Assembly: GCA_037447655.1 (NCBI GenBank)
Contig: JBBHKE010003059.1
Span: forward strand, 184,001-248,000
Length of the DNA: 64,000 nucleotides
Direction of reading: 5' to 3'
From: Zygnema cylindricum
Taxonomy: Eukaryota; Streptophyta; Zygnematophyceae; Zygnematales; Zygnemataceae
Under the pieces are notes generated by a model, which had not been told where the DNA came from, searched no databases, and was given only the letters and a program-made list of their open reading frames with translations. A program made the position numbers and the translations under genes. Of this stretch, positions 11,673-60,411 are shown in pieces (the first letter of the stretch is position 1; every line of letters begins with the position of its first letter).

Positions 11673-14600
11673 TCTTCGATCCTTCTGGGCGGCTGTGGAG
11701 GAGGGCATGCGGAGGCGTCTGGCGAGAGAGAGGAGTGATGTCATCCTTCGAGCCCTTGTAAAACGTTTTTTTAACGACCGAGAGGTAACCTCGACTCTCG
11801 TCATGGACGCCCTTTACAGCGGTTGTCGGGAGCTTTTTTTGCAGTCGAAATTGAAAAAGAATGAGAAAAATGGAGTCGTGGGAGTGGGAGGAGGAGGGGT
11901 TTTGGCTTTGGGGAGCTCGAGTTGCGGAAACGGGAACGCTTCGGCAAAGAATTCGTCGCTGGGAAATAGTAGCAAGAGGAAAGGAGTTCAAATGGGAGGT
12001 AGTGAGGGAGTGAATGGAGTAAGTCAGGGAGTGGGAGCTTTCCCTTCTTCTTCTTCTACTTCTCCTCCTCCTCCTTCCCCCGTGGTTTGGATGGAGAAAG
12101 GTAATTTTGTATTGGCGGGAGATGTTTTGGTGCTTCTGGAGAGGGCGGTGGGAGAGACAATTCCGTCGTATAAGGAGGAGAAAGGCCCTCAAAGTCGTTC
12201 GAAGGTAAGTTTTTTTTTTTCCCCCCTTTTTGTTTTTTCTAAAAAGGTAGAAAGATTCCTTCAGATGCAGGTGTTCTTGAGGTTTTCTTGTCATGGTTTT
12301 TAAAGCTTAAACACCGAGAGAAAAAAAGCTTGAAATGTCATCTGAGACAGAAGAACGTCATTTGTTTATGATAAAAAACATTCTATGATGTGAATGTGAA
12401 GTTTATCGATGAAGAAAGAATTTGAAATTCGCTTAGGCGTATTTCTAGTCCTTTTTCTTTATTTCAAAAGGGTGTAATAATCTTTTTGTGGTACAGGCAA
12501 TTCTTTGACAGTGTATTTTGAGTGTTGTGGATACAGGAAATAGCAGTGGGTGTTATTGAAAAGAGATTTTCTGTTTTTTGTGGTACAGGAGATGGGAATG
12601 GACGAGGTGGGAAAGGAGGTGGTCGAGAGAGATGAGAGGAGACTGACAGAACTTGGGAGGAGGACAGTGGAAATGTTTGTTCTCACCCATCTTTTCAGGT
12701 AAACTCTTACTAGAAAACGGAACAAAATTCCCATTTTTATTTTCTTCAAGTTTTACTGGTGTATTGGTATTCTTTGTCATGATTTTAGTCGTGAACTCAA
12801 AAGGTCGTGTGGTAATCCATCACCATCTGTAGAAAAAGAACAATTGAAAACTGGGTAGAATACAAAAATTCAAAAACTTCATAAGGTTTAAAAAAAGTCT
12901 GAAAAGTCTCAGACATCCTTTTGAAAAGCTTCTAGAAACCGTAAAACAAATTAAACGAAGAGAAAACAAAACAAACACAAACAAACAAACAAAAAGGCTC
13001 TACGAATGCTAAAAGAGAGAAGCACACACACACAAAAAAAAAGATACGCACAAAAAATACATACGAAAAAGAAAAGAACTATGTTGTTTTTTTTCTTTTG
13101 TGGGCAGCAATCGAGTGGAGGTAGCATACAGAGAGGCAGTGGCTTTGAAGAGACAAGAGGAGCTGATAAGGGAGGAGGAGGCGGCTGAGGCAGCGGAGAG
13201 GGAATCCATGGCCAGGAGGGAACAGGCCGAACTGGAGAGGAGAAGCAAAAAGAAACAGGTGGAAAGGCTGGGATTTTATTAGGGCTTTCTCACCCTTTTT
13301 TTGGCCTTTTTAGGTTTTTTTTTGGTTCTTTTTGGGATTTCCTTCTTTTTTCATGTTTTTCACCTGAATTTTTGTAGATCCTTCCCGGAGGTTTTTCTGA
13401 GTTGTTTTTATGGTTTTGTAGGCTTTGTGAGATGAAGCCAGGAGAGTTTTTTTTTTTTTTTTTTTAGCTTTTTATGAATTGAGCCAAAGGCGGTGGCAGG
13501 TTTTATTTGAGATACTTTTGAGGGTGTTGTTACAGAACTTTTGAATACTACATGCTTGTATTCAAACTTTTCGAGGATGTTTTCTTTTTTAACTCCAAAA
13601 GACTGAATATTCTTTTTCGAATTTCCAGGCTAAACAACGGAAAAAAGACAGGAAGGAGAAGAAGGCAGCTGGAAGAACTGCTGTTGAGGAAGTAGATGTA
13701 GAGGGAGATGGAGAGGGAGAGGGAGAAAGTGAGAGGGTGCAACACGTGAATGGGAATCACATGGTAGGAGAGATAGCAACAGCAAATGAATGGGAGACTG
13801 TGAATGGAACATTAGAACAGAATGGACATAATGGGGGGGAGGAGGAGGAGGAGGAGGCAGATGAGTCAGAAGCCACAGTGGAGGAAGCTTCCAGAGAAGT
13901 TTCCGATAATGAGGTCAGTATAAGAGATAGTGAGGTTAGCACTACTCCCACCGAAGTCAGTTTGAGTCAGTCAATGGTACCTCAAATAGCAACTGGTGGA
14001 GGGAGAAGAGAGGAGGAAGGAAGAGAGGAGCGCTTGGCCACTAGTGTGGATGTGGGCGATGACGTAGGAGAGATTGGAGAGGTAGGAGACGGAGGAGAGG
14101 AAGGAGAAGCAGGAGTAAGAGGAGAGGGAGGAGAAGTACCTGTTTCGGTTGAAGAATTGGAGGTAGATTTACCGGAAAACTGTGGGGAAAGTCAAGAACT
14201 TTGTTCTCGCGAACTAAACGGACAATTGAACAGATTGCAACATGGGATAGACGGAGAGGCAGATGGAGAGGGAGAGACGATTTCTCGTAGGGGACTTCAT
14301 CATGATGAAGCTTCCTCCACTTGTTCGTCGGATTCTCTCCCTTCAATCCACATTAATGGGGGTTTAGGGGACCCATCTTTAAATCCCGGCACAAACGGAT
14401 TGGCTACGGAATTGAGGAGGAGTCGTCTTGTGGGAATGTAAGTGGCTATTAGAGTTTTTTGGCGGGTGGGGATGTATGTTTTGAAGGGTTTTTTAGAGTC
14501 TTTTATTACGCAGAAGTACATTCTATTGCTGGTGTTGTTCAGGATTGCTGAGTCTGTTGAAGGCTGAAATTGAGGAAGATTTTATAGGGACAGCTTTTTG

Positions 14601-17600
14601 TAGAAACCATATTCACCTTCTTTTTGTTTTTGTTTTGTGATAAAGCAAGAAAAGGTTATCCCTCTTTGAATCTTAATTTTGAATTGCAAATTTTTAATCA
14701 CATTTTTTAGCTGTAAGGACTTTGGGAAACGTTAAAGTCGATAATTGTAGGACCCAAAAAAACTGATTCCCCTAAGATTCTCCATAAATTTTCATGATTG
14801 TAAATTAAATCTTTAAACAAAAGCTCTATGGCACATTGATATTTTCACTATACTTATCATATGTGATTTTAACAAGAGCGTTTTCTGTTTGGTTAACAAA
14901 CCGAATTTTATCTGGTACAAGGCGCTTATACAGCTCCAATTCTTTGTAGAGTTTTTTGGGGTTTTTTTTTTTTTTCTTCTAAAGTTAGAAGTGCATTTTA
15001 TGGATACTCGTAAAACGTAATACCTAATAAATTTTGGATTTTCAGGGCGGAAAATTCTGATATTGACGAAGCTGGACCCAGTGGAACAAGTGTGAACGAT
15101 TCTCGTGGAGGAAACATAAATATGAATATAAATATGAATATGAATATCAGACACGAAGGAAACAATGACAATCCGAGTACGAGTTGCAATGGATTGGATG
15201 CCGATACAATTATTTTGTCGCTCAAGGAACGAGTTCAGTGGTTGGAACAAAGACTTCAGGAGAAGGTGGGCAACTTGAGTGCCTTTTTCTGGTTTTCTTT
15301 AAGTCTTTTGTTTCGAATTTTAAGGTTTTTATTAAGGCTAGATGTTTTGGTTTGGGATTGGAGGTTTAGCGTCTGTTACGTTGGAGTTTTCTGGCTTTTT
15401 TTTTCTTTTCAGAATTGCAGTATGTTTTTAGGTTTGAGTTTCTAGAGAAGGTAAGGAATGTTCTGTCTATTGGAATTTTTAACATTTTTTTGTTCTTACA
15501 TGGGGTTAGTTTTCATGAGAAAATGATATAATTGAAGGTAGTTGTGATTTCAGATGCTGGACAGGAATTGCCGTTTTTATGCTGGATTTGGGAGAGGACT
15601 TTTTGGAAAAAGTTTCTATTATCTATTAGCACCACAATTAAGTTACGTGTTTTAGGTTTTTCTGAGTATTTAGTTCGTCTGTGCTTGAATGGTTTTCTGA
15701 ATGGTGACTTTGGTCGATAGGACATCTGGAAACAAATGAATGGTGATTTTTGTCAGTAAGTTTAGTTTTTGTTTCCACGTTTTGAATCTTCGTCTTTTCC
15801 GATTTAGAAAGTTAAAAGGCTTTTTGATTTGAGTGAGGGTTATGTAACAGCCACCCCCAGTATGTATAATTGAGTTGAATTTTAAATATTGTTTGGTGAC
15901 AAAAGTTTAAAAATTCAAAAAATACACATCATTCTGCCATACGATGATAATATACTGTCCGCCAGTAGAAAGCTTTGAACCCTTACCCTTTCTAAACAAT
16001 AAGTCGCACAGTTCAAATCTCTTAAACATTCGTCGCCAAAAGTTGGAACGCAAACTAATAAATTAAAAAAAAAAAAAATCGATCAAATTTGTCTGCTGAA
16101 ATAGGCAACTTTGCTGAACCTGTCTTGTCTTTCCGCTTTTACAGTGGTGAATTTAATTTAGTATTGCGTAAATTTATAATCTGACAACCATGAATCTTAA
16201 CTGTAGTTCCTTCAGTTGTTAAAATCCTCCTCTAAAACTTTTTAAAGCCTGTTATATATTGAGCTCATTTGTCCCTCTTTTAATCTGTTTCTAAAATTTC
16301 AGGAAGAGGAAGTTCTTTTTTTGCAAGAGCAACTTAGACTGCAACACACAATAGATGGGCGAACTCTTCCAGGGAAAAAAATAAGTTTACGGTCAGAAGG
16401 ACAAGGGAATTCCCCAAATTTTGAACCTGGGTTTTCCCAAATGAGTACATCTCAAAATAGAGGAGATAATACTGATTTTATTCAGGCAGATAAAGGAAAC
16501 AGGAGTCCTTCTCATGGGCAAGTTCTCCCTGGAAGAGGAGGTGGAGGTGGAGGTGGAGGTGGAGGAGGAAGACAACTGACAAAGGGGATAATTAACCCAA
16601 TTCTTATGGGAAATGGAGCAAGGACAGGAAATGGGATAAATCCATCTTTACAAATGGGTAGAACACGAGAGGGAGAGTCTAACGGAGAGGGCTCCGCACA
16701 GACAAGAGGAGGTGGAGGGTGGAATAAAAGAGGAGAGATGAACAATGTTGGCGGAGTTGTCCGACCTCCGAGGCCTACCTTAAATGGTATGGATTTTGGA
16801 GCTTCCGGGTTAGGAAATGGGATGGGTCCACGATCGCTTAGTATGTCTGTGGGAGTAGGGAGAGAAGCCGAGGTCATGGGAGGACAGGGGAGAGCTCATA
16901 TGGGAAGTTCCTCGTCTTCGCATTCTTCTTCAGGAGTCAATCTAGTAAGATCCCTTAGTTTTGGAGGTCATATGGGTAATGAAATCCACGCTAATTCAGT
17001 GGGTCAGTCTCCGATTTCTTATCGTAGTGTGATTGTGGGACCTCCCAGAGGAGGAGGAGGAGGAGGAGGTGGAGGAGGAGGAGCAGGAGGAGGAATTGTA
17101 CGGACAGGGGGAATTGGGGTTCAGGGAATTTCTCAAATGGACATGGTAGGAAGGCACGGAGGAGGAAAGAATTCATCAATGTTAACTTCTCCTCCAAGAA
17201 CTCCTCTACAAAGGATGTTACCGAGGGAAGGCGGAGAACAACCTTGTAGCCCAGAGACCAATATGTCATTTGGACTGAGATCTGAGATGAATAGGGAGAG
17301 AGAGGCAACAATGGCTTCTCCTCCTCCTACTTCATCGTCTTCCTCTATGCCTCTACCGCCCTCCTCTTCTCCACTTAATAACGCCATCAAAGGACAGAGA
17401 AGTGTAAGTGATGAGAGTGGAGGAGGGAGAAAGGGAGGACTGGAAGATGTATTGACTGGAAATACTGGCATTACTTTTGGAACGGTAGGTTCTGAGGGAC
17501 TCGGTTCTCTCAGTTCCGCAAAAGAGGGAGAGGAAATACGGAAGTTCGGAAACTCAGAGGAAATGCATACAACATTCGGAAATTCAGAGGAGATTCGGTC

Positions 17601-18156
17601 GGTGGTGGGAGTTTTAGGTGAATCTGGTTCGTCCACTTGGCGAGAATCTTCAAATTCTCGAGAGAGTGACAACTCGTTGATACAAAACGGTATGGAATCG
17701 AACTTACCCGAAGATTTTCCCCATTTAGCTCTTATAAATGATTTACTGGACGAAGATTTGCAGGCAGGGACAAGATCGGGAGTTTTTTCCTCAGAGGTTC
17801 CTTTTTATAGAACTCACTCTAGAAGCAATAGTATTCATGGGAGAGGAGGAGAGAACGGTCACGGGAAGGGAATGGGAGAATCGGGAGGAGGAGAGAGTGA
17901 GATTCTTATGTGGGGAAATTCGGAGGAGGAAATCGGTCGAGTGATGACTAATCCTCAAGGATTTGGAAGGGAGAGAGGAGAGGATGGGAGAGGAGGAGGG
18001 GTAGGAGGGATAGGAGCGATAGGAGGGATAGGAGGGATGGGAGGGAGGGGAGGGAGAGGAGGGAGAGAATTGGACGAGTCCGATGGGAATTTAGGAAAGG
18101 TTTGTGGAAATAGTAGGTCTTCTCACAATGTAGGTCAACCAATGTTCGGCTATTAA
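11673..18156 (+). CDS. TRAF/MUSE13-14-like protein, C-terminal coiled-coil part
   Basis: Six exons: 11673-12204, 12589-12698, 13108-13258, 13629-14437, 15046-15265 and 16303-18156. All junctions are GT-AG and in phase, with stop TAA at 18154. From the first ATG (11707) the protein has about 1213 residues. Conserved blocks match plant MATH/TRAF proteins that act in immune-receptor turnover and autophagy: RRRLARERSDVIL, FFNDREVTSTLVMDALYSG, EKGPQSRSK, ERDERRLTELGRRTVEMFV, NRVEVAYREAVALKRQEELI and a lysine-rich coiled coil. A long glycine/serine-rich, probably disordered tail follows, with a short coiled-coil segment (LSLKERVQWLEQRLQEKEEE) at the exon 5/6 join. No MATH domain was found upstream. 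Family-like residues (FWAAVEEGM) precede the first ATG, so either an upstream exon is missing from view or the N terminus was lost. Poly-Gly runs encoded by GGA repeats are present. Confidence 0.85.
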
Positions 18157-20123
18157 AATCCTATCTCCTGCACAAAAGGTTTTTTTTTTTCCTTCGATGG
18201 GAATGCATCGATAGTAGAAAGTTCCCATTTAAAAAAAAATAAAAAAATTGAGAAGTAAGAATGTTCGATTCACCTGGGTTTTATAGGTGTGTTTTTTGTC
18301 GCCACAAAGCCTGTGGGAAAATGGACGATGTTTTTTTTTCTTTCAAAAAATGGTTTTTATTTGTTTCTACTGTCTCCATGTGAAAGGCTGTCGTGTTATT
18401 TACGGAGTGAAATGGAGCCTTTCCATTAGCTCCCATTTTCTATATCACTTTTTCTTTTTCTTCTCCTTTTCCTTTTCCCTTTTTTCTTTTCCTTTTCCTT
18501 TTTCTTTTTTCTTTTTTCAATTTCATCTGTAACATTCCAAGATATCTTGGAGTGCGTTTTGGTATCTTTTTTTCTTCAATCTTTTTTAGCTTTTTATTTC
18601 TTAGTTCAAATGTGCAAAAACAATTGGAAACATTATAGGTGGTTGGGTCATACTATACGGGTGATATGCGATACAATATGGGGTAACTGCATATAGTGTT
18701 TCCAACTGTTATCGCACATCTGAATTACTGTTTTTTTGGAGTGTGAACTCAATGCTATACTTTTAGTCAATAATAAATTGTTATATTTTCGAAACAATCT
18801 AACCGAATTAATATGATTGATGCGATTAATATTATTATTATGATCGATACGGCTTATAATACGGTTAATATGATTAATATCGCCACAGTTAGAGTTCGTA
18901 CTAAATCTGTTAAAATAAGGATTTTGTTAAAATCATTAATGTGCATCGAAATTGTGTGTCGGTATTTTAAAGTTCCTCGATCTTCTCTAAATGGTGTCGA
19001 GGTTTACCGTTTGTGGAACCAAGGATCAATGAAGAGATTTTAGTCAAATCAGATCAAAGATTTGTAAGATACTTATTTTTCTTTTTCTAAAACTGACAAC
19101 TGGAAAATCACACAAGGATTTATGTGAATATGACTGTTTTTTTAGAATGTTTAATATATATTGATCTTCGTTAAAGCTGGCTTATGTGTTTTTTTTTTTT
19201 TTTTTTTTAATTATATTCCCAGTAATGACGAAACCAGCCGAGCATCTGACGAAGTGGATAAGGTAATAATTTAAAACAGTGTTTAATTTAGATATCATTA
19301 AATTTTGCGACTTAAAACTTATTATGTTATATTACTAGATACACTCAGATATTAATTAAGATAATAACCTGAAAACAGCCCAGTTGAGTAAATGGATACA
19401 AAAGAAAAAGAAAGGAAAAGCTGAAACGAAACCAAAAGAATTCATTAAAAAAAAAAAACAATCTACTTAAATACATATAAACAAATGCACAAAAAATTTT
19501 ACCAACAAAAGATGACAAACTAATGAAGGATGCGGAAAAGGACAACTGACACAAAAGACAAAAATGAATACCAAAAACTTAAAAACCAAACAAGACCCTA
19601 AACAAAAATATAAAGCCCCTATAGCAATTTTTGTAATAGAAACAACTTTTTTTTTCGATAAAACATAGACACAAGTGTTACCAGTGTCACACAATGGACA
19701 AGAGAAATGTGAAGATGTAAACAACGATGGTCACATTTTGCTAGGCCTTCTAGGGGGGGAGGGAGGGAGAGAGAGAGAGAAAAAGATTTTGGAATTATTA
19801 AGTGATACAAAACTTGTAGGACTCCACAATGTATCTTTTTAGAGGAGATTAACTATTCGAATTAGACTTAGTTAAAAAAAGAAAAAAAAAAGCGTGACAG
19901 TAAACTATTTGAGTACATCGAAACAAACAAAGGATAGGCAAAAAAGAAACATGCATAGAAACAATAAAAAAGAAAAGCGGGTAAAAAAGAAACTAAAACG
20001 ACAGCAAAAGAGACATGGAAACGGATAAAAAGTTTTAAACATATCCAAAAAAAAGACTACCGAACCGACCTTCAAAATAGAAAAAAAAAAAAAAAAAAAA
20101 AAAACATATATGCTAATTAATCA
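18157..20123. other. 3' UTR and intergenic sequence
   Basis: Immediately after the TAA is a T-rich region with aataaaaaaa-like stretches (18230-18250) that could carry the poly(A) signal, then TTTTCC repeats (18450-18530). Beyond about 18600 the DNA is AT-rich with A/T homopolymers (19188-19208, 20080-20104). Nothing else was recognised, including the missing 3' exons of the GT61-like gene that one would expect on the minus strand here. Confidence 0.5.
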
Positions 20124-27319: not shown

Positions 27320-28255
27320 TCTATTTTTTGGTACGGCTGCGGATTTTCTCGTTTTTTTCTAAGTTATGGAGGAAAACGACAGAAAATACTTGTACTTTAG
27401 CACATGCGAAAGTACCCTTATTTTTGACATGTTTTCGATTATTTTTTTGTGTAAAATCAAAGTAGGTCAATGCATTTTTAAAACATTTCATTTGTTCCAT
27501 GCATATAATCATTATTTTTCAGGCATTTCATGCGGGCGATTTATGTGAAAGGCCCCCCTTACTATTTGTCAACTGACAAGTGTCCCTGCCTCTTTTTCGT
27601 TTAACAAGTGTCTATACGTTTGGCAGGTGTCCATACATTTTATCGACTGACAGGTGTCCGTAAGATGCCCCCGTCAATCACCCACTTGATAGCAGTGAAG
27701 TGACGCAAACAAATCCAGATTCCCGCAAACAAATCGTGACCTAATTGAGGGTATGCGCCTGGGTAACCGTTACTTTGAAGGGGTACTTTAGATTTTAGTG
27801 AGAATCCTCCGTACTACTTTTCAGAGAGTTCCAATGTGCGAACATGAAATCGTAACTTTGAAATAACGGTTGTAGACACGGGGACAACTTGTGATGACTG
27901 AAGACGACTAGGAATCTTAAGACAATTGGTGATGTTTACAAAACGAAAAAAATAAGGTAAAACAAAAACGACGGTAGAAGACGACTAATTTTTTGTGACA
28001 TTGTAGATGTCTAAGGTTTTGTGTCGTGCATGGCAGTACAACCGTGATTGGCATGCATCACATCCAGTGTGGGTCGCTGATAAACACCAGAAAATGAATG
28101 ACCATTACATATGTACAGTATTTGTGACCACAATAGGAGTACAAAGCATACATGACGCAAGAAACAAAAAATAAATCTGCCCGGAAAAACAAATTATTCC
28201 AACACATGGACATGGCAAGGAAACAAAAAGACAAAGCAAGATCAGGTGAGTAATT
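27320..28255. other. Intergenic, no gene seen
   Basis: AT-rich. It contains a short degenerate series of ACAGGTGTCC(AT)A words at 27570-27662. Nothing else was recognised on either strand. Confidence 0.5.
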
Positions 28256-28614
28256 TGCGACAGTAGCCACTAGGCCCTGAAGTCATCAATATTCCCTACA
28301 AGAGTCCAATTAGTTGGTAAGAACCATTCCTCAACCGGGTGAAAGAGCCGAGATAACCGGTATTCCACCAAGGCCAGACGAGGTAAGTGTCAGCCCGTAC
28401 GGTCAGCGTCCGGACAGCAAGAAAACACCAAGTCCAAAGACACAATCCACAAATCACAACAAGTAGAAGACTGTCTGGAGGGAAACCTTGCAGGCTGGCT
28501 TGCGCCGGTAGATTAGGTAAGGTCTTAGTACAAAGAGAAGAAAAAGCTCAGAGACAATTATTAGCACAAGCTATAGGTTTGGAAAGAAATCCTAATTCAA
28601 AAACTAGCTTGTCA
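28256..28614 (-). repeat. 359 bp direct repeat, left copy (candidate 3' LTR)
   Basis: On the minus strand it begins TGACAAGC and ends TGTCGCA (5'-TG..CA-3'). It is nearly identical in sequence and equal in length to 36047-36405. It abuts the integrase core of the minus-strand gypsy element directly, without a polypurine tract. That fits a 3' LTR joined by internal deletion, or an unrelated element that cut the retroelement. Identity extends a few bases beyond both ends (atttgcgac..actaaat). Confidence 0.5.
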
Positions 28615-28620
28615 CTAAAT

Positions 28621-29159
28621 TGCTATTTGAAAGCTGCAGTGGTGAGTTTGGCTGTTTTCTGCGAGAGGCCCACAACTTCCACAAATTTGCTGAAATTTTC
28701 GATCATAATCATAATGTATTGCTTGCCCCTTCGCGAGATTGGAAAGGGACCGGCCAAGTCACACGACCACCTGTAAAAAAAACCCCGAATAGGTAAGGGC
28801 TGAAGGGAGGTCTGTCAGTTAAAAAATTAAGTTCGTAGCCGGTCACATGTGCTGCATTCCTGCAACACAACCGCCACATCAGCCTGCATGCCGTACCACC
28901 AATACCGTGCCTGTACCAAACTCAAAGTTCGTTTGGTGCCATAGTGTCCGAGGTCAGTATGAATTTGGTTGATAAGTGATAGTCGTTCCGTCGGCCAGGG
29001 AACATGCCGGTGACTTCCATCTGAGAGGAGACGAGTAAGTAAGCCCCCCATCCATAGGTAACTTTGGGCTCTCTTAGAACACGCTCCTCTTCCATTTGTA
29101 GGGTGCCCGCCCGGAAAGACTGTGTCGATAAGAAAAGAATTAAAGCACTGTCTCGCCAT
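28621..29159 (-). pseudogene. Gypsy integrase, zinc finger and truncated core
   Basis: Minus-strand frame 29159-28827 contains the integrase H2C2 zinc-binding module: H and H in HTDLGH, a YWWYGMQADV helix and CSTCDR. The following frame encodes WSCDLAGPFPISREG with the first catalytic Asp, then KQYIMIMIENFSKFVEVVG, typical of the integrase core. The reading changes frame between the two parts. Sequence stops matching at about 28621, where the 359 bp repeat begins, so the second Asp and the Glu of the DDE triad are missing. Integration function is lost in this copy. Confidence 0.8.
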
Positions 29160-29279
29160 AGATCGTGTTCGGTTTTGTGGCTTGTAGGTGCTGCAAAACT
29201 GTAAATCAGATGTGCTCCAGCTGATAAGGAGGCAACTGATCCGTCATCAAAATCCTGTCGCACACCATTATTATTGGAG

Positions 29280-30729
29280 TGGGGCAAAGGGTTCCTGGAG
29301 AGGCCGTCGACATTCAAACTGAGGAGCCCGGGTCGATGGATTATTTCCATGTCATATTCTTGTAAAATAAGAGCCCAACGGGCTAATTTGCCGGATAACT
29401 TGTCATTGGTCATGAGCCAATGCAATTGTTGATGGTCAGTAAGAAGGGTAAAAGGCTTGCCATAGAGATAATGTCGGAAATGCACAATACCCCAAACTGC
29501 AGCAAGACATTCTCCCTCGTAACTACTGTAATTTGATTCCGCTTGATTGTTGCTTTTACTGGCGTAAGCCACCACATATTCCTCACCTGTGAGTTCACGT
29601 TGAGTTAGGATAGCGGCAATACCGGGCTTACCAAAGTCAATCTGTAGACAATACGGTAATTTATGATTTGGGGGACGGAGGATGGGAGCGGTAGACAGTG
29701 CGTCCTTTAATCCCCGAAACGCCCCGATCTGAGAGGGTCCCTCACGTGAACGGGACTGACTTCTTCAAGAGTTCATTCAATGGAGATGCAAGTGTGCTGA
29801 AACTAGGAACAAACCGCCGGTAATAATTGGCTAACCTTAGAAATGCACGCAGGCTAGTCAAATCAGTTGGTGCTGGTAGTTTACTAATTGCTTCCACTTT
29901 GACTTCTAGCGGAGAAATTCCCTCAGATGAGATAAAAATGCCCAAAGTATGGAACCCCTTCGGCCCCAAAGGTACATTTGGCAGGATGACATTTAAGTCC
30001 TACCTTTTTTAATTCCTTCAACACCCACTCTATATGCACTGCATGTTCCTCTATAGAGGCTGAAGCGATGATTAGATCGTCAATATAGCAACGGGCAAAC
30101 TTACATCCCCCCAAGACTGAGTCCATGACTTTCTGGAATACTGCCGGTGCATTTTTCAGTCCAAAAGGCATAACTGCCCATTCCCAACATCCGTCACTAC
30201 CCCAAAATGCAGTTTTGTGTCGATCTTTTTCCTCTATTTCAATCTGATTAAATCCCTGTCGCAGATCTAGGATGCTAAAATATTTAGCTCCTCCAACGTG
30301 ATCAAAAATGTCCTCGGCCAACGACATTAGATGTCGGTCCTGGATTGTACGTGAATTAAGTTCTCGATAGTCCCCACACATGCGACGTTCTGTAAAATTC
30401 CCCTCCGCGTCTTTCTTACGAGGCATGATGGTGGGAGCCGCAAAGGTGGAATCGGACCTATAAATCAGACCTGCATCTATTAACTCTGCGCATCGTTTGT
30501 CCACGGATTCCCATTCAGTTTCTGATAGACGATGCTTGGGCTTAAATATAGGTCTGTCATCTTCCAGGTCAATAGACATTTTGTAAGTAGTGTGTCGACC
30601 TAAGTCTTTCATGGAGAAAGCAAATGCGTCTACGTTTTGGTTTATGACTTTATCTAACAGTTCGTATTCAGTTCCTGTTAGTCCAGTTCCGAATTTCCAT
30701 GTCGATTTTTCAGGCGTGTTAATGGTCAT
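29280..30729 (-). pseudogene. Gypsy reverse transcriptase and RNase H
   Basis: The open frame 30729-29923 carries the RT palm and fingers: CGDYRELNSRT (about residue 118), FSILDLRQGFNQIEI (151), FGLKNAPAVFQKVMD and the catalytic YIDD at residues 215-218. One base in the T run at 29935-29939 breaks the frame. The next frame supplies ISSEGISPLEVKVEAI and the connection domain, and a further small shift near 29745 leads to RNase H (LQIDFGKPGIAAILTQ, SNYSSYEGECLAAVWGI, LLTDHQQLHWLM). Its ATG lies four bases after the TAA that ends the methyltransferase frame and is in the same frame. In an intact relative, DNMT and RT could thus be one polyprotein. Confidence 0.85.
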
Positions 30730-30732
30730 GGC

Positions 30733-32097
30733 TTACATGGCTTGTGCAAATGCTAGCTGTTCATCTGCTATCAAGGAGTGACCCAACTCATACTCGACAG
30801 GAAGCTGATGCAAACAATTTACTGCGTGATGCCAACTTCTAGACGGAAATGCAGCTGTCCAGTGTGGTGATGCCCGTACCGGTACTTGAGATCTAGCGGC
30901 CGTGTATGCTGGGAGAGACCAACTCATGTGACTAGGTTCCAAAAAATCATAAATAGTGTGATCTATGTCAGACTTAGCGGGAAAAGGAAAAAAAGCAAGC
31001 TGAAAAATTGTACCCCGAAGAGAAGGTGAGGACTTGGAAGGTGTGTGTCTGAATGGTGTATGCCCCCCTTCAGCTGATTGAGACGGATGGTTCTCTGCGT
31101 ATCGACCAGCGGCGAACCCCATGCCTAAGACAAATGACAGTGATTGGGGATCCATGACACGACCAAGTAAGGTGCAGCGCTGCCTCTCGGTGAGTCCCGG
31201 AGCAGCAGTGGTGCCTGAGATGAAATGTAAAAGATGTTCTCGTTCTGCGGCAGTAGGTTCTTCTAAGCTGCCTGTATGAGTATTCTGAAGCATGCCCGGT
31301 CCATTGTTGGAGTATGAGTGAGAATGTGGATATGCAACCAGTGTAGGCAATGCACGTAGTGGTTGGCCCAGGATGTTAAGACCAAATGCAGGAGGATAGT
31401 TTGTCTGTATATATGTTTGGACCTTATGAAATGGAAGAAGTGCATCCTGAATGGAAAGGTTAGGTGGACGGACTGCGAGGTTAGCTTCTCGAAGCCGACC
31501 CATGTCCACCAGGTTAGTCCACTTGGAACGAACCCGGTGGGCTAGTGAACCGTGGCGTGCGGCATCAATGATCAGTGGTGGTCCAATTAACGATTCAATG
31601 CGTTTATAATCTGCAAGGACCGTAGGTCCGGGGTCATTGAAAGCTGCTACGTTCTCTAAGATGTATCCAAAAGGAGGATCCAATTTTTGGAAGAAATGGA
31701 TCAGACGAACCACCTCGAAAAACAGCTTAGTGTGCGGATCTGCAAGACCTAAACCTTTCTCGGCCCTAGACATACCCTGACATTCCCATCCGGCAGAGAG
31801 GAGATCAAATGGTTCCAATTCCATTAAATGATGATTCCCTATTAGCCGGATATCCTGTGGCAACGCTGAATGCATATCGTGGAACGCAGACTAGGGTAAA
31901 AGATGAGGATACTGTTCATGCAAGACTTGACAGTGGTGCAACTTAGCGCAACTGGCTAAAGGATCAATATCTACGGAATAGCAATGCTTTATCAGAAGAC
32001 CGTTCGGAAGGCAAGAGAGAAGTGAAGTCCCTATTCCCGCAAAAGGTCTAAGATAACGAGACCGTTTTGGTGAGGTTGTAAGTTGACCGGTGTCCAC
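30733..32097 (-). pseudogene. DNMT3-like C5-cytosine DNA methyltransferase within retroelement pol
   Basis: Predicted SAM-dependent DNA cytosine-5 methyltransferase. Motif I is RPFAGIGTSLLS (32049-32014), with the acidic motif II in YSVDIDPLASCAKL. After a single in-frame TAG (31891-31893) come motif IV with catalytic Cys in SAGWECQGMSRAEKG (Cys codon 31782-31780), TKLFFEVVRLIHFF resembling DNMT3/DRM, motif VI LENV (Glu codon 31656-31654), and motif VIII AARHGSLAHRVRSKWTNL. Later blocks are ALPTLVAYPHSHSY, EREHLLHF and LTERQRCTLLGRVM (motifs IX/X region). The Cys environment is ECQ rather than the usual PCQ/PCN. The domain lies between protease and RT and reads in frame with RT apart from one TAA. 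Such captures are known from charophyte gypsy elements and dinoflagellate retroelements, and are thought to methylate newly made element DNA. This copy is interrupted by the TAG and an upstream frame change. Confidence 0.85.
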
Positions 32098-32950
32098 TTA
32101 AATGGCAAGAACTTGGAACGATCTATTGCACCGAAGGGTGGATCTGGAATACTAAATAAAGGAATTGGTATAGTAAATTTATATAGCCGGTCAAAATCTG
32201 AAGAGTCAATGGTAAATCCGGGTGTAGTAAATAATTCTGGTAAACGCGGGGAATCTGGTGAGATTTCGTCCGCTGTTAGTGCTTCTAGGATGTCAACACC
32301 TATGCCAACTGCGGCATAGGCAGGCAAGATCACCGCCGAATGGCCGTAGTAGGCATGGGTTGTCGGGCCAAGATAAGGGGTAAGCATATTTTGCGTTCTA
32401 GAAAATTGTTAGGTATGTACGAAAATGTTTGATCATGCATATCAACCCCCCCCCCAACTCGGAAGATAACGTCTTGACCAACCAAGCATTCATATTCACT
32501 ACACTTGGTGACCAAGGCGTGAGCATAAATTTCTGCGAATTCTGTCGCTGACTGACTTTGAAACTGAATACAGATTGGGTCTATCGTAATACCCAGGACT
32601 GGCTCTGTGGTACCTGCGGAAGTCAATAACGTGTGGTAATGGGTTGTAGCTTATCCGCTGTAAGACCTATTTTGATGGCAAAATCAGAACTGAGGATAAT
32701 TGGCTTTACACCAGTATCCATGAGAGGAAGTGCTGGAGCAAACCCATTAACTGTGAACACGCTTTATTTGTTATCTAGAAAACTGATGTGAGGAGTGAGG
32801 CTAGACCGCTTTTCAAGAGTAATAGCTTGAAGGGAGAGAGCATTACGATGGTTTTGTAATGCTTGTAACGCAACTGCTGAAGGAGTTAGATCTATAGTTT
32901 TTTCGTTGTTATCCAACTCGGGAAGCATGGTGGACAGGATGGACAATCGT
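32031..32950 (-). pseudogene. Retroelement aspartic protease and linker
   Basis: The minus-strand reading gives VFTVNGFAPALPLMDTGVKP with the catalytic DTG, then IILSSDFAIKIGL. A shifted frame follows (32626-32330) with PVLGITIDPICIQF and CLVGQDVIFRVGGG, which resembles retropepsin flap/core strands. A second frame (32387-32031) of about 118 residues has FSIPDPPFGAIDRSKFLPF and leads up to the methyltransferase. The linker matches no domain I recognise; it may be the original methyltransferase N terminus or an element-specific spacer. Confidence 0.65.
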
Positions 32951-33150
32951 TCTTTGACCTTATATGTGTCTTGTATGCTCCTCTCTAAAACAGTTAATGC
33001 TTCAGCGGTGATGCTTCAAGCCGTTTCTCGAATAGGGGAGCAAATGATAGTGGGATACGCGTGTTAATGGATTTTGACTCACGATTATGATCGGGAGTCC
33101 CTTTAAACTGAGTTGCCCGCTGTTGAACATGGGACTCCCGAAGAGATCGC

Positions 33151-34316
33151 CTAGCAAAAGAGGGCATGTGGACCACAGTTTGAGCCATTCCGGTTAATTG
33201 CGGTTTGACCTGCGCCATAAGCGCGACAAACTGCTCCTTCATCATAGCCGCTACGGTGGCCTGTATCTTGACTTTCTCTCGGTCCCTTCTGCTGATTTTT
33301 TAACGGTTGTCTTTCTCCACTCCTTTGGGTGGAGTGACCAATTTTGCCGAGCGAGCGGTATACCGCCGTTTTTGATTTGGTTTTGATAACTGAAATCGGG
33401 ATTTTTAATGTGACATCGATGTACATAATGACCCGTTTGATTACAATGAGTACAGGTGGCGGTCTTATCCGAAAAGCTGCGTGCGTCGTGACCAGTGTTA
33501 CCACATCGAAAACATATACGAACACCAGGGTTTGTTGGTTAATGTTCCCATGGCTGGAGCCCTTGGAGGTCTCAGATTAGGCCATGGGGTGCGTGGATTA
33601 GGATTAGGATTTGGGTTTGCATTGGGAGAAGACTTAGGTCGCTCGTGAGCGTCCCACCAGCTGGTTTGCATTTCTCACCGTAGGGCGTATTCTGCAGCCT
33701 GCTCAAAAGTAAATTTGAGGCCATATGCCTCACTCAAATGGCTTTGAATGAAACGTCGAGATTGGGTGGGAAATCGCCCCACAAATTTCTGAACTGCCTT
33801 TGCGTCTGACATGAGATCTGGCAATGCTTCACGTAATGTTTCCATACGTGCTCGCAATGCCGGAGCGGTTTCGCCTGGGAGATGTTCAGAATTCATTAGT
33901 TCTTTAACCTGATCGGGATTCTGCATTCGGTACTCTCCCTGTAATAAATTGAAGACAAATGATATCGGATCCTTTAGAGGAACCACCATTGCAGGGCGAA
34001 CTGGAATTGCCGCCCGAGCCGCAACGGCGAACTGATGAGGGACCTCAAGTATTTCCGGTGAAATTTCTTTACCTGCAGAGTCATAAACTACGGGTACTGC
34101 TGCTTGGAAAAGAATTTCTGGACTGCCTGTTATGGCTAAAGATCCAGAATATGCGGGTGCCATTTCTGTCATAGCACAAATTGCCGCGTATTTGTGTGTA
34201 TATAGAGATAGGGCAGATCCTTTAAGGTATCGCCCAGGTAACGAAAAAGCAACACGTAAATCATAACGGTCTTGATACCGGAATGCGAGATCGCGCATCT
34301 CGGTATCAAAAAGCAT
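33151..34316 (-). pseudogene. Retroelement Gag with CCHC zinc knuckles
   Basis: The open frame 34316-33675 (213 residues) is helical and Gag-like, with QFAVAARAA, LLQGEYRMQNPDQVKELMN and FVGRFPTQSRRFIQSHLSEA. One in-frame TGA is followed by a proline/asparagine linker with repeated NP. After a frame change come two knuckles at about 33505-33425: CFRCGNTGHDARSF, where the last Cys is Phe, and an intact CTHCNQTGHYVHRC. A Gag relic with the same spacing and the following IKxPxF..GGIP block occurs at 57409-57600. Gag packages element RNA. Confidence 0.75.
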
Positions 34317-34775
34317 TCAAAAATGTGACAAAGACATAGTGTCCTTGAGACCGGAAAAAAAAAACTGATTTTTACCTCCTCCGGGTGTCTATGGGCGAGG
34401 CCATATCCCCAAAATAGGAATCAGAGTTTGTGTGTATATTTTCGCTCAAAAGCAAAAGCGAAGGTGGTAGATTTAGATCCCGGATATCAAGGGAGTCTAT
34501 ATCCGAATCTTCCCCCCAGCTATGGGAAGAGGATGAGGAGACAGATGATGTAGATCTATTTGTAGTGGCAATACCAGATCTAGAGTCGGGTGAACCCGTA
34601 AGCTGAGAGTGAGCGGCATGACCAGTATGACCTAGAAACAGGACAGGAGGTGAGCGGGCGGGAATCAGATCCCGGTCTGGTCCACGGTAAAGACCGGAGC
34701 TTCTAGTGGTACTCGCTGGAAACGGTAAATTGTGTCAATCCGTTGGCATGTAAACAGACAGTCGTCCTATCCGGA

Positions 34776-35145
34776 TGCAACTAGATGCTGAACCCTACTC
34801 AGGGTCAGTGTGCAAATGCCCACCGCCAGATCTAATAATCAAACACACAGGAAGTCTTCAAATTCACGCAAACAAACACCCACGCAAACAATTACCCCCA
34901 TAAACGATTCGATCTATTGTGTATCACCGGTGTTAGTCTAATCGTGGACACCCCTAACAGCCTGAACTAGATGCCGGACCCTACCCAGGGTCAGTGTGCA
35001 AATGCCCACCGCCAGATCTAATAATTAAATCACACAGGAAGTCTTCAATTCACGCAAATAAGCACCCACGCAAACAATTACCCCCGTAAACGATTTGATC
35101 TATTGTGTATCACCGGGGTTAGTCTAATCGTGGACACCCCTAACA
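34776..35145 (-). repeat. Two tandem copies of a 184 bp unit in element leader
   Basis: Units at about 34776-34961 and 34969-35145 share gggtcagtgtgcaaatgccc, cgccagatctaataat and end in ggacacccctaaca. On the minus strand each starts TGTTAGGGGTGTCC, an LTR-like 5' terminus. They may be a duplicated LTR fragment or leader repeats. The stretch 35146-35690 to the right is GC-balanced with ccagatgta/aggccacaag short repeats, and 35690-36025 is strongly AT-rich; neither has a gene. Confidence 0.7.
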
Positions 35146-36025
35146 AGGCTGTTCACAGCCAAATCTAAGCAATCCCACAATAAGTCACTTCAAGCCACTC
35201 CAAAAAGAAACATGTCACCTATGTAAGGCCACTTGTGGCCTGATTTCATAAAACAGGAAACTATTCAAGGCCCACAAGGCCAGATGTAGAAAACATGAAA
35301 TTATCCTGGCCCAACAAGACCAGATGTAATAGGCAAGAATTCGCTATCCAAGACCAATCACGGTCAGATCTAAAGAAAATGCAACCACAATGCCTATGCG
35401 GAAAAGAAGGCACAGCCTTTGGTCGGATCTTAACCCCTCTAGGTTATCGCGCTTAACAACCTATCACGCGCCTGCAACCACAAAGACCCGATTACTCACC
35501 TGGAGCGATCGGTAAGGTCTTCCAGCGATGCTCCAACCTCCCTCCAATTCCGAATTGTCGAAAACAGATCACAGCTTAAAATACCAACGAAGTTAGTAGC
35601 CTGTTAGGGCACGCGTATCAGCACTATGCCATGCTCTGCCCGTCTATAAAGCAATGATAATTTTCGTGATAATTCGTGCAACCTAATATTTATATATATT
35701 TTTTTCTTAGGTTTTTTTTTTTTTTATGAGTTTTTAAGTTTTCTAGGTTTTCTGAGTGAGTTAATCCTGTAGGAAGAAAGAAGAGAAAACGATACCGGAC
35801 AGTTCAACAATCTGAAATTCAGCAACTTAAAAACAAAGTAGGCAACAAATAAAATAGAATCATTAAAGAAAAAAAAAATTATACTTTTTTTTTTCTTTAA
35901 TTTCAACAAATTCAAAACAAACTAGACCGAGGACACCAGGAAAAAAAGAAAATTGGAAATGAAACGAATGAAAATAAACTAGACAGAAAGAAAACAATTG
36001 ACGAATAAAAAAAAATAGAAAGAAA

Positions 36026-36509
36026 CAAATTAAGTACGGGAATATTTGCGACTGTAGCCACTAGGCCCTGAAGTCATCAATATTCCCTACAAGAGTCCAA
36101 TTAGTTGGTAAGAACCCTTCTTCAGCCGAGTGAAAGAGCCGAGATAACCGGTATTCCCCCAAGGCCAGACGAGGTTAGTGTCAGCCCGTACGGTTAGCGT
36201 TCGGACAGCAAGAAAACACCAAGTCCAAAGACACAATCCACAAATCACAGCAAGTAGAAGACTGTCTGGAGGGAAACCTTGCAGGCTGGCTTGCGTCGGT
36301 AGATTAGGTAAGGTCTTAGTACAAAGAGAAGGAAAAGCTCAGAGACAATTACTAGCATAAGCTATGGGTTTGGAAAGAAACCCTAATTCAAAAACTAGCC
36401 TGTCACTAAATATTTAGGTGGAAACCCTAAGATAGAGTTCGACAAATCCCGAGAAAAAGCTTGTCAGAAAACGACAACCTTCCAATGTTGGATTCCCGTA
36501 CTTAATTTG
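36026..36509. other. 18 bp inverted repeats flanking the right 359 bp repeat
   Basis: CAAATTAAGTACGGGAAT at 36026-36043 is exactly inverted at 36492-36509. The left arm abuts the first base of the repeated unit (36044). The right arm lies 80 bp past its end. This suggests a TIR-bounded unit of about 484 bp, of which the left copy at 28253 lacks both arms. Confidence 0.7.
36047..36405 (-). repeat. 359 bp direct repeat, right copy (candidate 5' LTR)
   Basis: Same length and near-identical sequence to 28256-28614, with minus-strand ends TGACAGGC and CAGTCGCA. No primer-binding site follows it: the next bases on the minus strand are AT-rich. Its LTR status is therefore unproven. A 60-codon frame on the + strand is open in both copies but has no recognisable product. 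Confidence 0.5.
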
Positions 36510-39500
36510 CGAAAGTTACTATCTTGCCAAATGGCATTTATCCTATGCTTTCACTAATCCGTACGGTTACACTAATTCCTACATGTCTCTGAGCAGGCAT
36601 GCTTCTATGTTAAAACGCTGCCAGTTTCAAGAGACGACCGCTGCGTGGCCGCCTCAGACTGCCTTACATCTACACCTCGAGGATAAAAACCCTCCTAAGC
36701 TAAGCAAAAATGATGCATGAACCTCCAAGGGTTCATGACTTCAGACACCTGTCAGGTTTGTAGCCGTTTGAATTCTTGACGTTTTATGCGGGTACCCGCG
36801 GTCCAGTTCCACGCTGATTTCACATCGTGTTCCAGTGGCGCCGTACAAGAGTGTATTCTAACCTTTGTCCCGTACGAATCTCTATTTGTACTCTCGGATA
36901 TGAACCTGTAACGTCACCGAAACATGAATTAGTACATAATTATATCATAATACCCGCCGACGTCTTACGGCATGACATTTGTGACACGGTGACGTCATGC
37001 TCACTTGTGACAACATCGACGTCATTGATTCAAGAAATTTCCGCTATGGCTTCTCGATTTCGTCTCTTCGACTTTTCTCACTCGATTTTCCATCAAAATA
37101 TGTTCAAAGGTACAGTATTTTTCAAAGCTTTTTCATTTCATACCCCAATTGTTGTGTTTCACTCCAAAAAATGTGAGATAAAGGTGATAGTGCGAGCCGG
37201 AGTGGGAGAGATGACGATGGCGTAAACTTTTGCTGAGGACACATAAATATGTGATGGTTTGAGACCCCTGTAAATTTTTTTTTGGTATATGCGCATGTAA
37301 ATTTTTTTTTGGTATATGCGCATGACAGGCAAAAAAAAATAGCAAGTGTCCTCCCTCATGCTAAAAATTCCCCACTTGTGTGGCGCGTGCGTGCATATTT
37401 TTTTGTTTGTTGTTCACGTGATACTTTAACTAAAATGAACTCGCGCGGCGATTTTTGATACATATTTTTGATAAGGTGGATTCGCGTGCCAGTGGGTTGA
37501 AAATAGGTGAACGCCAAAATGAGTACAAGAATGGAATACATATAAAGTAAGAAGATGGCGTTCCTTGTCCCATGGTAGAATCAATTTTTTGTACAGCAAA
37601 AGATTTTGTAGATGGGGTTTGAATTGTGGAGGAAAATGATAGAGAAAACACAATACTTTGACACACAGGCACATACCCTCAAATCTTTACTTCATCGTGC
37701 GTTCTTCATTACATGTAAAGAGTTGTTTTCCCAAATAATCGAGCATATTCGTACATAAATTAAGAATATAATGTAATATAAAATACAAATAAAATGTATG
37801 CAAATTTTAAAATTTCCAAAGACGAGAGAAGCCAGTTTGAAGTGTGAAGGTTGTTTGAAACCCTAAAAGTTGTTGGCTACAGTGTAGCTACTGATACGTC
37901 AGTATTTCGTAGATTATCTTTATAAACAATACTTATACTAGAATATACAAGTAGTGGCATGATAAAAAGATTCGATAGTCAACCAAATTTGTTTTCGTGG
38001 AAAATTTCTTATAAAGGTAAAATGTGCGGGATTTTACCTACATATATAAAATCCATATTTAACCAATCACGTGTAATACTTTTACACATAATGCACATCA
38101 CATAGCCGGGGTCAAATTTGCTTCACGGGGACAAAAGCAAACGTCAAGTAAGTTGTTGTCACTATTCGCATCAAAGTACTACAAAAAGATACTTATAGCT
38201 CCAGGGTATAAAGGACGTTAACTAGATCTTTGGCGAACCAACCAAATTCTCCTTTCCCATAGTAGAAGTTGTGAGTGTTAATAGTGTAGTTGTCGATCAA
38301 AATCATCGTCGACATGTTGTGATGTCGGTTTGGCGTATTATTGGGAAGATGGCAAGTTACAAAATAGTTATTTATCAGCTTTGTCATTAAATATTAATAT
38401 CGTTGTAGCCACTGATAGTCAACGATATAACAAAAGATATACATGCATTTTACACGAAAAAAAAAAACCGAATTTGTAAAAAATGCATGGCATGCTCTCC
38501 GTTCGTACCGTACATACTGTATATCAACGTTTTTAGCCATCTCAATAGTGATACCGACCCTTGGCCATTACCAATCGTCGAATAGACTTGATCGATATTT
38601 GGTCTTTTGTGACCAGAAAAAATAGTACATATCAATTATTGACAAAACCAATGCCACATGTAACCATAAAGTTGAAGCTTCTTAATGTTTAGAGACATAA
38701 AAACATCTTCATTTTTTATTATTCTTCAATCAACGAACTTAGATTGCGCTTAACAAGAGTACCAACATGGATAGCGTAGAAATGAGCTTTGTGATGACGA
38801 GGAGGAAATACAATATATTATTTGTTATGTCAAATTATAATGTTTTTTGTTTTACTAGAAAGAGGCAATGTGAAGGAAAGACCAAAAAAGAAGAAAGAGA
38901 AAGAATAATGGAAGAGAGAAGCAAAACCGAAGAAGGGAAAAATGAGAGTGGAAAAGAGGTATAAAAACGAATTGAATACCACAACTCACACAACTTACTA
39001 GGGGTAAAAGTTTGTGAATTCGAATTAATTAGTGAGCACAAATAAATCTCGATAGTAAGTGATAACCAATTAGTTCGAAATTAATAATAAATATTTTGGA
39101 ACATTGCTCCTTCTCTCTTCCCTTCTCCCCCCAACCATTTCTTAAGTAAATTTGAAATAACCAAAATCTTGACTTGCAATGTATTTGCTTCAGCATGCTT
39201 ACTTAAGACACAACAGATTTTCATACAAAATAATTTTCAATTTTATAATATTTTATATTGTGAGATACAATCGATTTATACACACCATAAAATACAACTC
39301 ATACAAAATTGGAAAATGTAATGCGTCTACTTTTAAGTAGTTCACCAAATAATGATCCATTATTTACATTATTATCCACAACTTGCCGAAGCACCACTAA
39401 ATTGCGTTAACTTCAACATTTTATAAAATTGTTGTTCTTTATATAATAATTAGTGCATCATTTTCTATCTGTTTACATTTCACATCTGGTAATTTCAACC

Positions 39501-48175: not shown

Positions 48176-48656
48176 ACCGCGAATCGTTATTAGCCTTATG
48201 TACTGCTCTCCGTACCTAAATTTTGACATTGATACCGAAATTGATTAACAAACATAATTTTTCCTTGACGTTAATTACGGTTCTTGTAAATTAGCGTTAA
48301 CGGTCATAGCGTACTTATTTCATGAATAGTGTGATGTACGGAAGGTTTTTGTTCGTACAACACTGTACTTCACTAGCGAAAATCGTACAGAAATGGTAGT
48401 TAACTATGTCGGTTGCACACAGAACTGCGCTTAGAATAAACCTGGAGTCGAATTTGCGACAAACTCTTTCGCAAACCCAAATTATAATTATGGATTAATT
48501 ATAGTAAATGGACGCGACATTGTCAGATTTTGTACTCCTACCAATTTTACTGTTTTTTTAATGACGGCAGATCTAGATCCGTTTTTAACCTAAATCAGAG
48601 TTATGGAGAAAATACAATTAAACATTTTTTTAAAAAAAATGCAATATCCAAATTAG
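48176..48656. mobile_element. Family A-type element, partial
   Basis: After TA at 48174-48175 comes the canonical end caccgcgaatcgttattag, then gttaatta, ttagcgttaa, the tagtgtgatgtacgg phrase and gatttgcgaca-like sequence shared with the foldback arms. The right end was not located. The family C element at 48657 may have replaced it. Confidence 0.55.
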
Positions 48657-49250: not shown

Positions 49251-49364
49251 TTTTTTTTACAAAAGATGAAACTAGAAATTCGTCAAGATTCTCCAGAATT
49301 TTTGGCGAAAACTTCCACCGTCCGATTCCGAATTTTCGACACAACGCCCCTTCTATCCAGTTTC

Positions 49365-50319: not shown

Positions 50320-50321
50320 AG

Positions 50322-50333
50322 TGGTATCGGAGC
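50322..50333 (+). promoter_or_regulatory. Primer-binding site (initiator tRNA-Met type)
   Basis: TGGTATCGGAGC lies two bases after the 5' LTR. It differs by one base from TGGTATCAGAGC, the usual plant copia PBS complementary to the 3' end of initiator tRNA-Met. Confidence 0.88.
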
Positions 50334-60408: not shown

Positions 60409-60411
60409 TAC

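Follow-up and report, generated by a model that had tools for sequence, protein, structure and literature searches.

Layout of the locus

The window analysed here is a stretch of 64,000 nucleotides from the streptophyte alga Zygnema cylindricum (contig JBBHKE010003059.1 of assembly GCA_037447655.1, positions 184,001 to 248,000). Its minus strand carries a retroelement that spans 28022-36977, is flanked by CAAA on both sides, and has a DNMT3-like cytosine methyltransferase (DNMT) domain between the protease and the reverse transcriptase (RT). The parts of this element, several of which were delimited by comparison with an intact relative (C1344), are listed in Table 1.

Table 1. Features of the element, in its own 5' to 3' direction
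Feature	Position in the window	Strand	Basis or remark
Target site duplication CAAA, 4 bp, 5' side	36978..36981	minus	matched by 28018-28021
Terminal repeat A1, 935 bp, starts TGTCATGCC	36043..36977	minus	86.8% identity to C1344 A1
Two tandem ~186-bp repeats, 5' untranslated region	34779..35145	minus	
gag region, frame broken	33039..34791	minus	tblastn of C1344 frame, residues 27-608
CCHC zinc knuckle in gag	about 33476-33521	minus	Pfam CCHC in relative, E 0.0026, below cut-off
Aspartyl protease region, several frame breaks	32342..33039	minus	tblastn of C1344 frame
DNMT3-like C5-methyltransferase domain, catalytic Cys in WECQG	31090..32070	minus	motifs, Pfam, PDB sequence matches, AlphaFold2 model
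DNMT-RT linker, ends in stop 30733-30735	30733..31089	minus	collinear with P0023
Ty3-type reverse transcriptase	29935..30732	minus	Pfam RVT_1 6.3e-29
RNase H domain, other frame	29252..29764	minus	Pfam RT_RNaseH 1e-26
Integrase H2C2 zinc finger and beginning of rve core, cut by deletion	28626..29120	minus	tblastn
Terminal repeat A2 remnant (A positions 556-930)	28253..28620	minus	half of apparent LTR pair
Terminal repeat B2, ends GCACGACA	28022..28252	minus	84.5% identity to C1344 B; at least 41 genome matches
Target site duplication CAAA, 4 bp, 3' side	28018..28021	minus	matches 36978..36981

The window copy is a dead relic. Measured against the 2395-aa open frame of C1344 it has undergone at least eight frame changes, which lie in gag, in the protease, in DNMT motif I (just before FAGIG), after the RT, in RNase H, and before the integrase. 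Two in-frame stops add to the damage: a TAG at 31891-31893 cuts the DNMT domain in two, and 30733-30735 parts the DNMT stretch from the RT. A deletion has removed the end of the integrase, repeat B1, and the first 555 bp of A2, and the copy lacks everything beyond residue 2084 of the C1344 frame, that is, the remainder of the integrase and a PHD finger. When the C1344 frame and seven public proteins (P0009, P0010, P0012, P0014, P0015, P0017, and P0028) were aligned by tblastn, the matches ended at 28626-28629; a displaced integrase remainder further downstream in the window was searched for and rejected.

Two 368-bp stretches, 28253-28620 and 36044-36411, resemble a pair of long terminal repeats (LTRs) with 95.4% identity, and 13 of their 17 differences are transitions. 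A simple LTR element at 28253-36411 with 368-bp LTRs was discarded because the comparison with C1344 shows both stretches to be parts of repeat A, and independent solo LTR insertions on the two sides were considered from the flanks and rejected. The CpG observed/expected ratio is 0.78 in the element and 1.25 and 1.10 in its flanks; as it is also low (0.67) in a gene-like stretch at 11000-20000, the element bears no clean methylation footprint.

Other features were noted elsewhere in the window. On the plus strand, 57199-58179 holds a related gag remnant with a CCHC knuckle; it shares 31-41% identity with the frames of C1344 and C449 and is an older and more diverged member of this element type. 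A copia-type element (gag 50334-51308, RVT_2 53007-54782) occupies 48650-63095, where mutually similar repeats at 48650, 49847, 54763-56040, 59306-61010, and 62622 form a nested repeat cluster. Pfam searches with 10 other open reading frames of the window matched three, all with copia-type reverse-transcriptase-element domains and one with a weak RVT_1 match. A 636-codon open stretch on the plus strand (16246-18156) has no Pfam match and contains a DFPHLALINDLLDED stretch that we take to resemble a plant TRAF-like protein, and 278-1081 consists of low-complexity purine/pyrimidine sequence in which several frames of the two strands are open. Rfam and tRNA scans gave no matches.

The methyltransferase domain

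The initial annotation placed a full set of C5-methyltransferase motifs at 32097-30733, in frame with the RT of a gypsy-type pol. All of the named motifs (FAGIG, WECQG, LENV, HRVRSKW, and RQRCTLLGR) were recovered on the minus strand. The interval does contain the DNMT, but its first 18 codons (32097-32044) are read in another frame in intact relatives. Both DNMT stretches are indeed in the RT frame, although the two stops described above interrupt the domain and separate it from the RT. The Pfam search that the annotation proposed gave a significant DNA_methylase (PF00145) match of 1.7e-8 on the 385-codon open stretch 31890-30733.

This match is far beyond chance. Compared with PDB sequences, the open reading frame alone matched DNMT3A at 2.5e-10 and M.HhaI at 0.04. 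With a profile of eight sequences (the reading frame and seven relatives), DNMT3A was again best (4.2e-21), followed by lesser matches to 4onj ("DNA methyltransferase", 1.5e-9), DRM2 (4e-9), and HhaI (3.5e-8). For the 328 residues of the read-through domain, AlphaFold2 with 28 sequences gave a model with a mean pLDDT of 92.8 and a pTM of 0.91, and the 50 best PDB folds listed for this model are all DNMT3A/3B/3C structure chains with TMq values up to 0.72. The predicted fold is that of a complete DNMT3 domain, and the best sequence match is likewise to DNMT3. The PCN motif IV of the DNMT3 family is absent; the window copy reads ECQ and most relatives read PCQ.

Intact relatives and element type

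The relative C1344 contains an uninterrupted 2395-aa frame in the order gag-protease-DNMT-RT-RNase H-integrase-PHD, with DNMT and RT within one open frame. Pfam recognizes DNA_methylase (7.6e-12), RVT_1 (6e-30), RNase H (1.1e-34), Integrase_H2C2 (1.9e-15), rve (7.6e-12), and PHD (2.7e-10) in it; the CCHC and aspartyl protease matches are both below cut-off, and Asp_protease_2 is above cut-off in the public protein P0006 and below it in loci L029 and L032. The integrase of C1344 retains its D, D, and E residues with 34 residues between the last two, and no tyrosine recombinase or phage integrase was found by Pfam in residues 2-2395 of the frame (searched in two pieces). In PDB comparisons, the window RT is closest to a reverse transcriptase/RNase H chain (4ol8, 1.2e-37) and next to the Ty3-G polyprotein (7.8e-37). 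A Ty3-type RT, RNase H, and then an H2C2 plus rve integrase follow one another in the order of Ty3/gypsy elements, as in L029. The genome also holds a second family (C1374), whose DNMT is about 40% identical to that of the window family. Its order is DNMT-RT-RNase H-H2C2-rve, and its PHD match is weak (0.0044) and lies below cut-off. The element type is best explained as an autonomous Ty3/gypsy-type retrotransposon with a DNMT3-derived domain and an integrase ending in a PHD finger, and the window holds a decayed copy of it.

The host assembly comprises 352.8 Mb in 2689 contigs. At least 109 stretches related to the window DNMT were found in it (108 of 1897 candidates scored), with identities of 58-100% and some of them uninterrupted, and PF00145 has at least 123 matches (123 of 782 candidates scored). 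Of 20 PF00145 loci that were fetched, 19 hold this DNMT type, and in 15 of these it is accompanied by an RT; the remaining locus, L015, is an exon of a host gene. The arrangement protease-DNMT-RT recurs in other genome copies and in public proteins, and the RT lies downstream of the DNMT at all eight loci of the window's own family that were compared (L001-L008, window included). That a fragment of a host DNMT gene was caught by chance beside a retroelement at a single locus, the possibility against which the initial annotation had guarded, is thus refuted by the number of stretches, the same order at eight loci, the 2395-aa polyprotein, and the independent public relatives, and its probability is close to nil.

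The L015 exon (G000:C514:126680-126928) matches the PDB chains 9mvy, 7ubu, and 4fsx (with 4ft2 and 4ft4) at 3.5-3.7e-28 and other chains named DNMT1 at 6e-12 and weaker. All are labelled DNMT1 in the match table; we take 4fsx to be maize chromomethylase and the others to be animal DNMT1, a reading on which the exon points to a streptophyte as the probable host. The exon is closest to the chromomethylase chain, which is evidence, at the level of sequence similarity, of a plant-type CMT in the host.

Selection on the methyltransferase

Ratios of nonsynonymous to synonymous change (dN/dS) were calculated by the Nei-Gojobori method for 16 pairs of copies. In seven of these, dS was saturated and no ratio could be obtained; L002/L003, a near-identical pair whose two differences gave 0.32, was left out. 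In the eight measurable pairs, which are related copies and not independent tests, dN/dS of the DNMT was 0.10-0.25: 0.15, 0.15, 0.18, 0.25, and 0.11 for L002 with L001, L005, L007, L008, and L012, and 0.12, 0.10, and 0.10 for L031 of the second family with L010, L027, and L028. The RT gave 0.02-0.21 in the same pairs, save for 0.48 with the decayed L008. The DNMT is under purifying selection.

One reading of this selection is a truce between host and element, in which the DNMT would methylate the element's own copies and throttle transposition, with selection acting via survival of the host. It was raised as a possibility in PMC5890265, according to the available text of which KnitGypsy-Dnmt3 copies in Klebsormidium bear CHH and CHG methylation, and the selection seen in the Zygnema copies speaks for it too. 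We nevertheless think it quite unlikely, since copies that are 99.87% identical over 7 kb, one of them with A1 identical to A2, point to very recent transposition and thus to incomplete throttling, and since selection within an element would usually reflect its own transposition cycle.

Alternatively, the DNMT could be a passenger that is catalytically dead and is kept only as an RNA- or DNA-binding or structural part of Pol. The change from Pro to Glu in motif IV of the window subfamily would agree with this, and, as described in the available text of PMC5890265, the KnitGypsy DNMT domain did not methylate in yeast in an assay that was itself inconclusive. The catalytic Cys, the EN of ENV, and the Arg of motif VIII, however, show little or no variation across the family alignments, and the model predicts a complete DNMT3 fold, which makes a dead passenger improbable.

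Active site and public relatives

The initial annotation called for a comparison of the ECQ active site, which turned out to be a subfamily trait: WECQG or a remnant of it is present at 12 of 12 loci of the window's own family (10 distinct copies, window included), the W being changed in two decayed ones, and it recurs in the public proteins P0001, P0002, P0006, and P0031. WPCQG is found at the remaining 15 host loci with this type of DNMT. The Glu in place of the usual Pro before the catalytic Cys could lower activity. P0014 and P0021, which belong to a second public group, read ECQD; if the tree described below is right, Glu arose more than once.

A first protein search returned seven matches and a profile search 149, the best 120 of which were listed; among the matches listed, P0031 from Closterium sp. 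NIES-53, also a zygnematophyte, is a close DNMT relative. Thirty-seven proteins (P0001-P0037) scored 85-421 bits on the core profile, against at most 63 for the pieces of DNMT3A and for the highest-scoring of the other proteins compared. P0023 is collinear with window positions 32097-30052 over 655 residues (36% identity, E 8e-128), and P0006 combines a protease with the DNMT. Two domain orders occur among the public proteins: protease-DNMT-RT, as in the window family and in part in P0006 and P0023, versus RT-RNase H-DNMT-integrase. The latter is found in the second public group, which comprises the polyproteins P0007-P0017, P0021, and P0027-P0029. A G-patch domain lies next to the DNMT in P0013 and P0014 of this group.

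Four of the seven second-group proteins with an rve domain carry a PHD finger (P0010, P0014, P0015, and P0028); no PHD match was obtained by Pfam in the rve-bearing P0009, P0012, and P0017, of which P0009 runs past its integrase. The presence of a PHD finger after the integrase in both groups, L029 included, suggests that this association may be older than the difference in DNMT position.

A first tree contained 33 family sequences (our own and 32 of the 37), the DNMT3A pieces, and 26 others including a Prorocentrum protein, the 26 being what was left of 86 after near-duplicates and short sequences had been dropped. Support was 96.1/97 for the family, 85.4/98 for the protease-DNMT-RT group, and 92.8/92 for the RT-RNase H-DNMT-integrase group; in a second tree, which included nine host loci, the two groups received 62.1/86 and 95.1/94, respectively. 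P0033 speaks against a clean correlation of order and clade, as it has the DNMT before the RT yet falls, weakly and on a long branch, into the second group. The family, the DNMT3A pieces, and the Prorocentrum protein grouped together at 90.3/99 (25 others) and 92.9/99 (9 others), in trees that held one DNMT3 (as two joined pieces), other methyltransferases most of which were bacterial or carried no name, and neither DRM nor DNMT1.

A bacterial or viral origin of the DNMT is disfavoured. Five scans of viral contigs, including one with the RT, yielded no confirmed relative, none of 25 pattern hits in GTDB prokaryote contigs was confirmed, and fold and tree favour DNMT3, on a comparison with few references.

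Split repeats, ends, and joints

The ends of the element depart from those of a conventional LTR retrotransposon. In C1344, repeat A1 (85514-86444) is followed by the open frame (87534-94718), a purine run, B1 (94737-94978), the dinucleotide GC, A2 (94981-95911), and B2 (95912-96154). A1 is identical to A2 over its full 931 bases, and B1 and B2 are 99.6% identical. The 5' end thus consists of A only and the 3' end of B-A-B, instead of the identical LTRs expected at both ends of a Ty3/gypsy element. The same DIRS-like A-coding-B-A-B order is complete in a second element, C449, whose DNMT is 72% identical and whose B measures 186 bp.

Repeat B was surveyed by reading 30 loci among at least 41 genome matches (40 of 197 candidates scored). 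Immediately before B1 there is usually a purine run that closes with many G, and before B2 the end of A; at the remaining loci one of the two sides is missing or B lies beside unrelated sequence. The joint from B1 to A2 has a two-base spacer in 12 of 12 distinct places, where the letters between GACA and TGTC are GC, AC, or GT, and also in C1344, C449, and C1407, a near-identical copy of C1344 (99.87% over 7 kb). Letters beside the spacer are changed at L050 (start TATC) and L065 (end GATA).

The A2/B2 joint is far more variable. It is readable in 17 elements (one joint per element) and is near exact, that is, A930-931 to B1-3 with at most two added bases, in nine of them (C1344, L040, L041, L045, L047/L048, L055/L064, L061, L065, and C449). 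Among the eight inexact joints, B starts at position 14 in the window copy and A ends at position 333 in L043/L046, L044/L058 and L050 carry extra polypurine-side bases, and C1407 lacks about 226 bp of A together with 17 of B. In the others, material has been added: a 164-base piece in L053/L057 that derives from the region before the polypurine tract and matches C1344 at 91% identity, 116 bases beginning with the primer-side sequence that follows A1 in L039/L042, and 34 bases resembling a stretch inside A in L066.

The outer ends have TG..CA termini and a short target duplication, as do those of Ty3/gypsy elements, whose duplications measure 4-6 bp. Perfect 4-bp duplications flank four of seven two-ended insertions (window CAAA, C1344 TTGG, L045 GAGG, L066 ATAG), a perfect match being expected by chance at about 0.005 if the base composition is taken to be near that of the window. 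L041 and C449 match at three of four bases and the other-family C1374, whose 3' end may be misassigned, at none; C1407, which is cut at its 5' side, was left out of the count. L045 and L066 are A-B copies without B1 and are probably products of recombination between A1 and A2.

Joints of this kind are known from the two-LTR circles of retroviruses. Variable A2/B2 joints with primer-side or polypurine-side sequence are what would be expected if two-LTR-type circles precede integration, and the unusual ends suggest insertion from a circular DNA copy. Some of the inexact joints could be later deletions, an origin that would hardly account for the inserted polypurine-side and primer-side pieces. 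The nine near-exact joints weigh against the joining of cDNA ends, as an orderly template switch would also give them.

Such a switch, at a DIRS-type internal complementary region, would itself make the split repeats and leave the integrase to act on a circle. The order of the repeats is that of DIRS elements, and a relative is described in these terms in the available text of PMC5890265. However, the joints that have gained polypurine-side or primer-side sequence, or in which much of A is trimmed, resemble end joining, the polymerase and integrase are Ty3-like, and the C1344 frame, as noted above, gave no tyrosine recombinase match in Pfam. We therefore regard a template switch as unlikely and prefer integration through an end-joined circle.

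A model for replication and integration

The domain order, the purifying selection on the DNMT, the A-coding-B-A-B repeats, the 4-bp duplications, and the variable A2/B2 joints are, as a whole, best explained by an autonomous element, decayed in the window, that would integrate by a circular route, methylate its cDNA, its circle, or its insertion site, and be tethered by its PHD finger; we hold this overall account to be somewhat better than an even bet. From the footprints at the joints we infer that reverse transcription would have two priming sites, one beside the end of A1 and the other at the polypurine tract before B1, giving a linear cDNA with an LTR of the form B-NN-A at both ends. Joining of these ends, often imprecise, would produce a two-LTR-type circle. 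The DDE integrase would then open this circle at the palindrome GACA-NN-TGTC inside an LTR, not at the ends, and insertion of the opened circle with a 4-bp duplication would regenerate A-coding-B-A-B.

The roles of the two chromatin-related domains are suggested by domain identity and selection. The Pol-bound DNMT would most likely methylate the cDNA or circle or else the insertion site, so that the new copy might be tolerated by, or hidden in, the methylated chromatin of the host, and the PHD finger would tether the integrase to H3 tails. The two-LTR circle as an integrase precursor was once proposed, and then rejected, for retroviruses. The full combination of a DDE integrase with such a precursor, a cut at GACA-NN-TGTC, a self-methylated circle, and a PHD finger reading H3 is offered as a tentative proposal, possible but doubtful. 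If it is true, a chromatin writer and a chromatin reader travel in one polyprotein, as in host DNMT3, which combines an ADD with the catalytic domain.

It has been a puzzle since 2018 what makes a transposon retain, under selection, an enzyme of the type with which hosts silence such elements. With at least 109 copies, at least one of which has identical terminal repeats, the Zygnema genome makes the methylation of new insertions and circular cDNA measurable. The joint footprints provide a testable claim about split direct repeats served by a DDE integrase, which bears on the origin of DIRS-like ends, and the Glu-for-Pro replacement beside the catalytic Cys, which the members of a purifying-selected subfamily have in common, offers a natural experiment on the extent to which motif IV is required.

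Comparison with known systems

ADD and PWWP are features of animal DNMT3. The element has neither, and it reads WECQG instead of the SPCND of DNMT3A/3B/3C, with a TMq of about 0.71 and 22% identity; it shares with these enzymes the best fold and PDB sequence match, motif VIII (AHR-R--W-NL), and the LLGR of motif X. The second public group has the same DNMT family, gypsy pol domains, and in part the PHD finger, and differs by the DNMT position between RNase H and integrase, a mostly PCQ active site, and the G-patch domain in two proteins.

The initial annotation held that the class is known from charophyte and dinoflagellate retroelements, and PMC5890265 bears this out. There, de Mendoza and colleagues (2018) describe Dnmt3 domains in gypsy elements of Klebsormidium with DIRS-like repeats. 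A 2025 paper (PMC12344493), as far as its available text goes, states that streptophytes and dinoflagellates have LTR elements and DIRS elements with DNMT3 members, and the available parts of PMC9998398 and PMC11096116 yielded nothing on such elements. SymbioDIRS-Dnmt3 of Symbiodinium, as described in the available text of PMC5890265, likewise has Dnmt3 in Pol, the order A-coding-B-A-B, and two coexisting domain orders; it uses a tyrosine recombinase, whereas the Zygnema element has a Ty3-type RT, a DDE (rve) integrase, and target duplications.

The closest counterpart, by published description and not by sequence, is KnitGypsy-Dnmt3 of Klebsormidium nitens, for which a literature search found only the 2018 paper. 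In the available text, it too has a Dnmt3-type domain in the frame of a gypsy Pol, the DIRS repeat order, a streptophyte algal host, and a Ka/Ks below 0.2, close to the dN/dS range of the Zygnema DNMT. The Zygnema element resides in another genome in at least 109 copies, and the present analysis adds a description of its PHD finger, 4-bp duplications, circle-like joints, and ECQ site; no mention of a PHD finger, a circular form, a target site, or a polypurine tract was found in the available main text of PMC5890265. With the novelty of the PHD finger and circle-like joints judged against a limited literature search, the Zygnema element is not a new class but a new member with new variant features.
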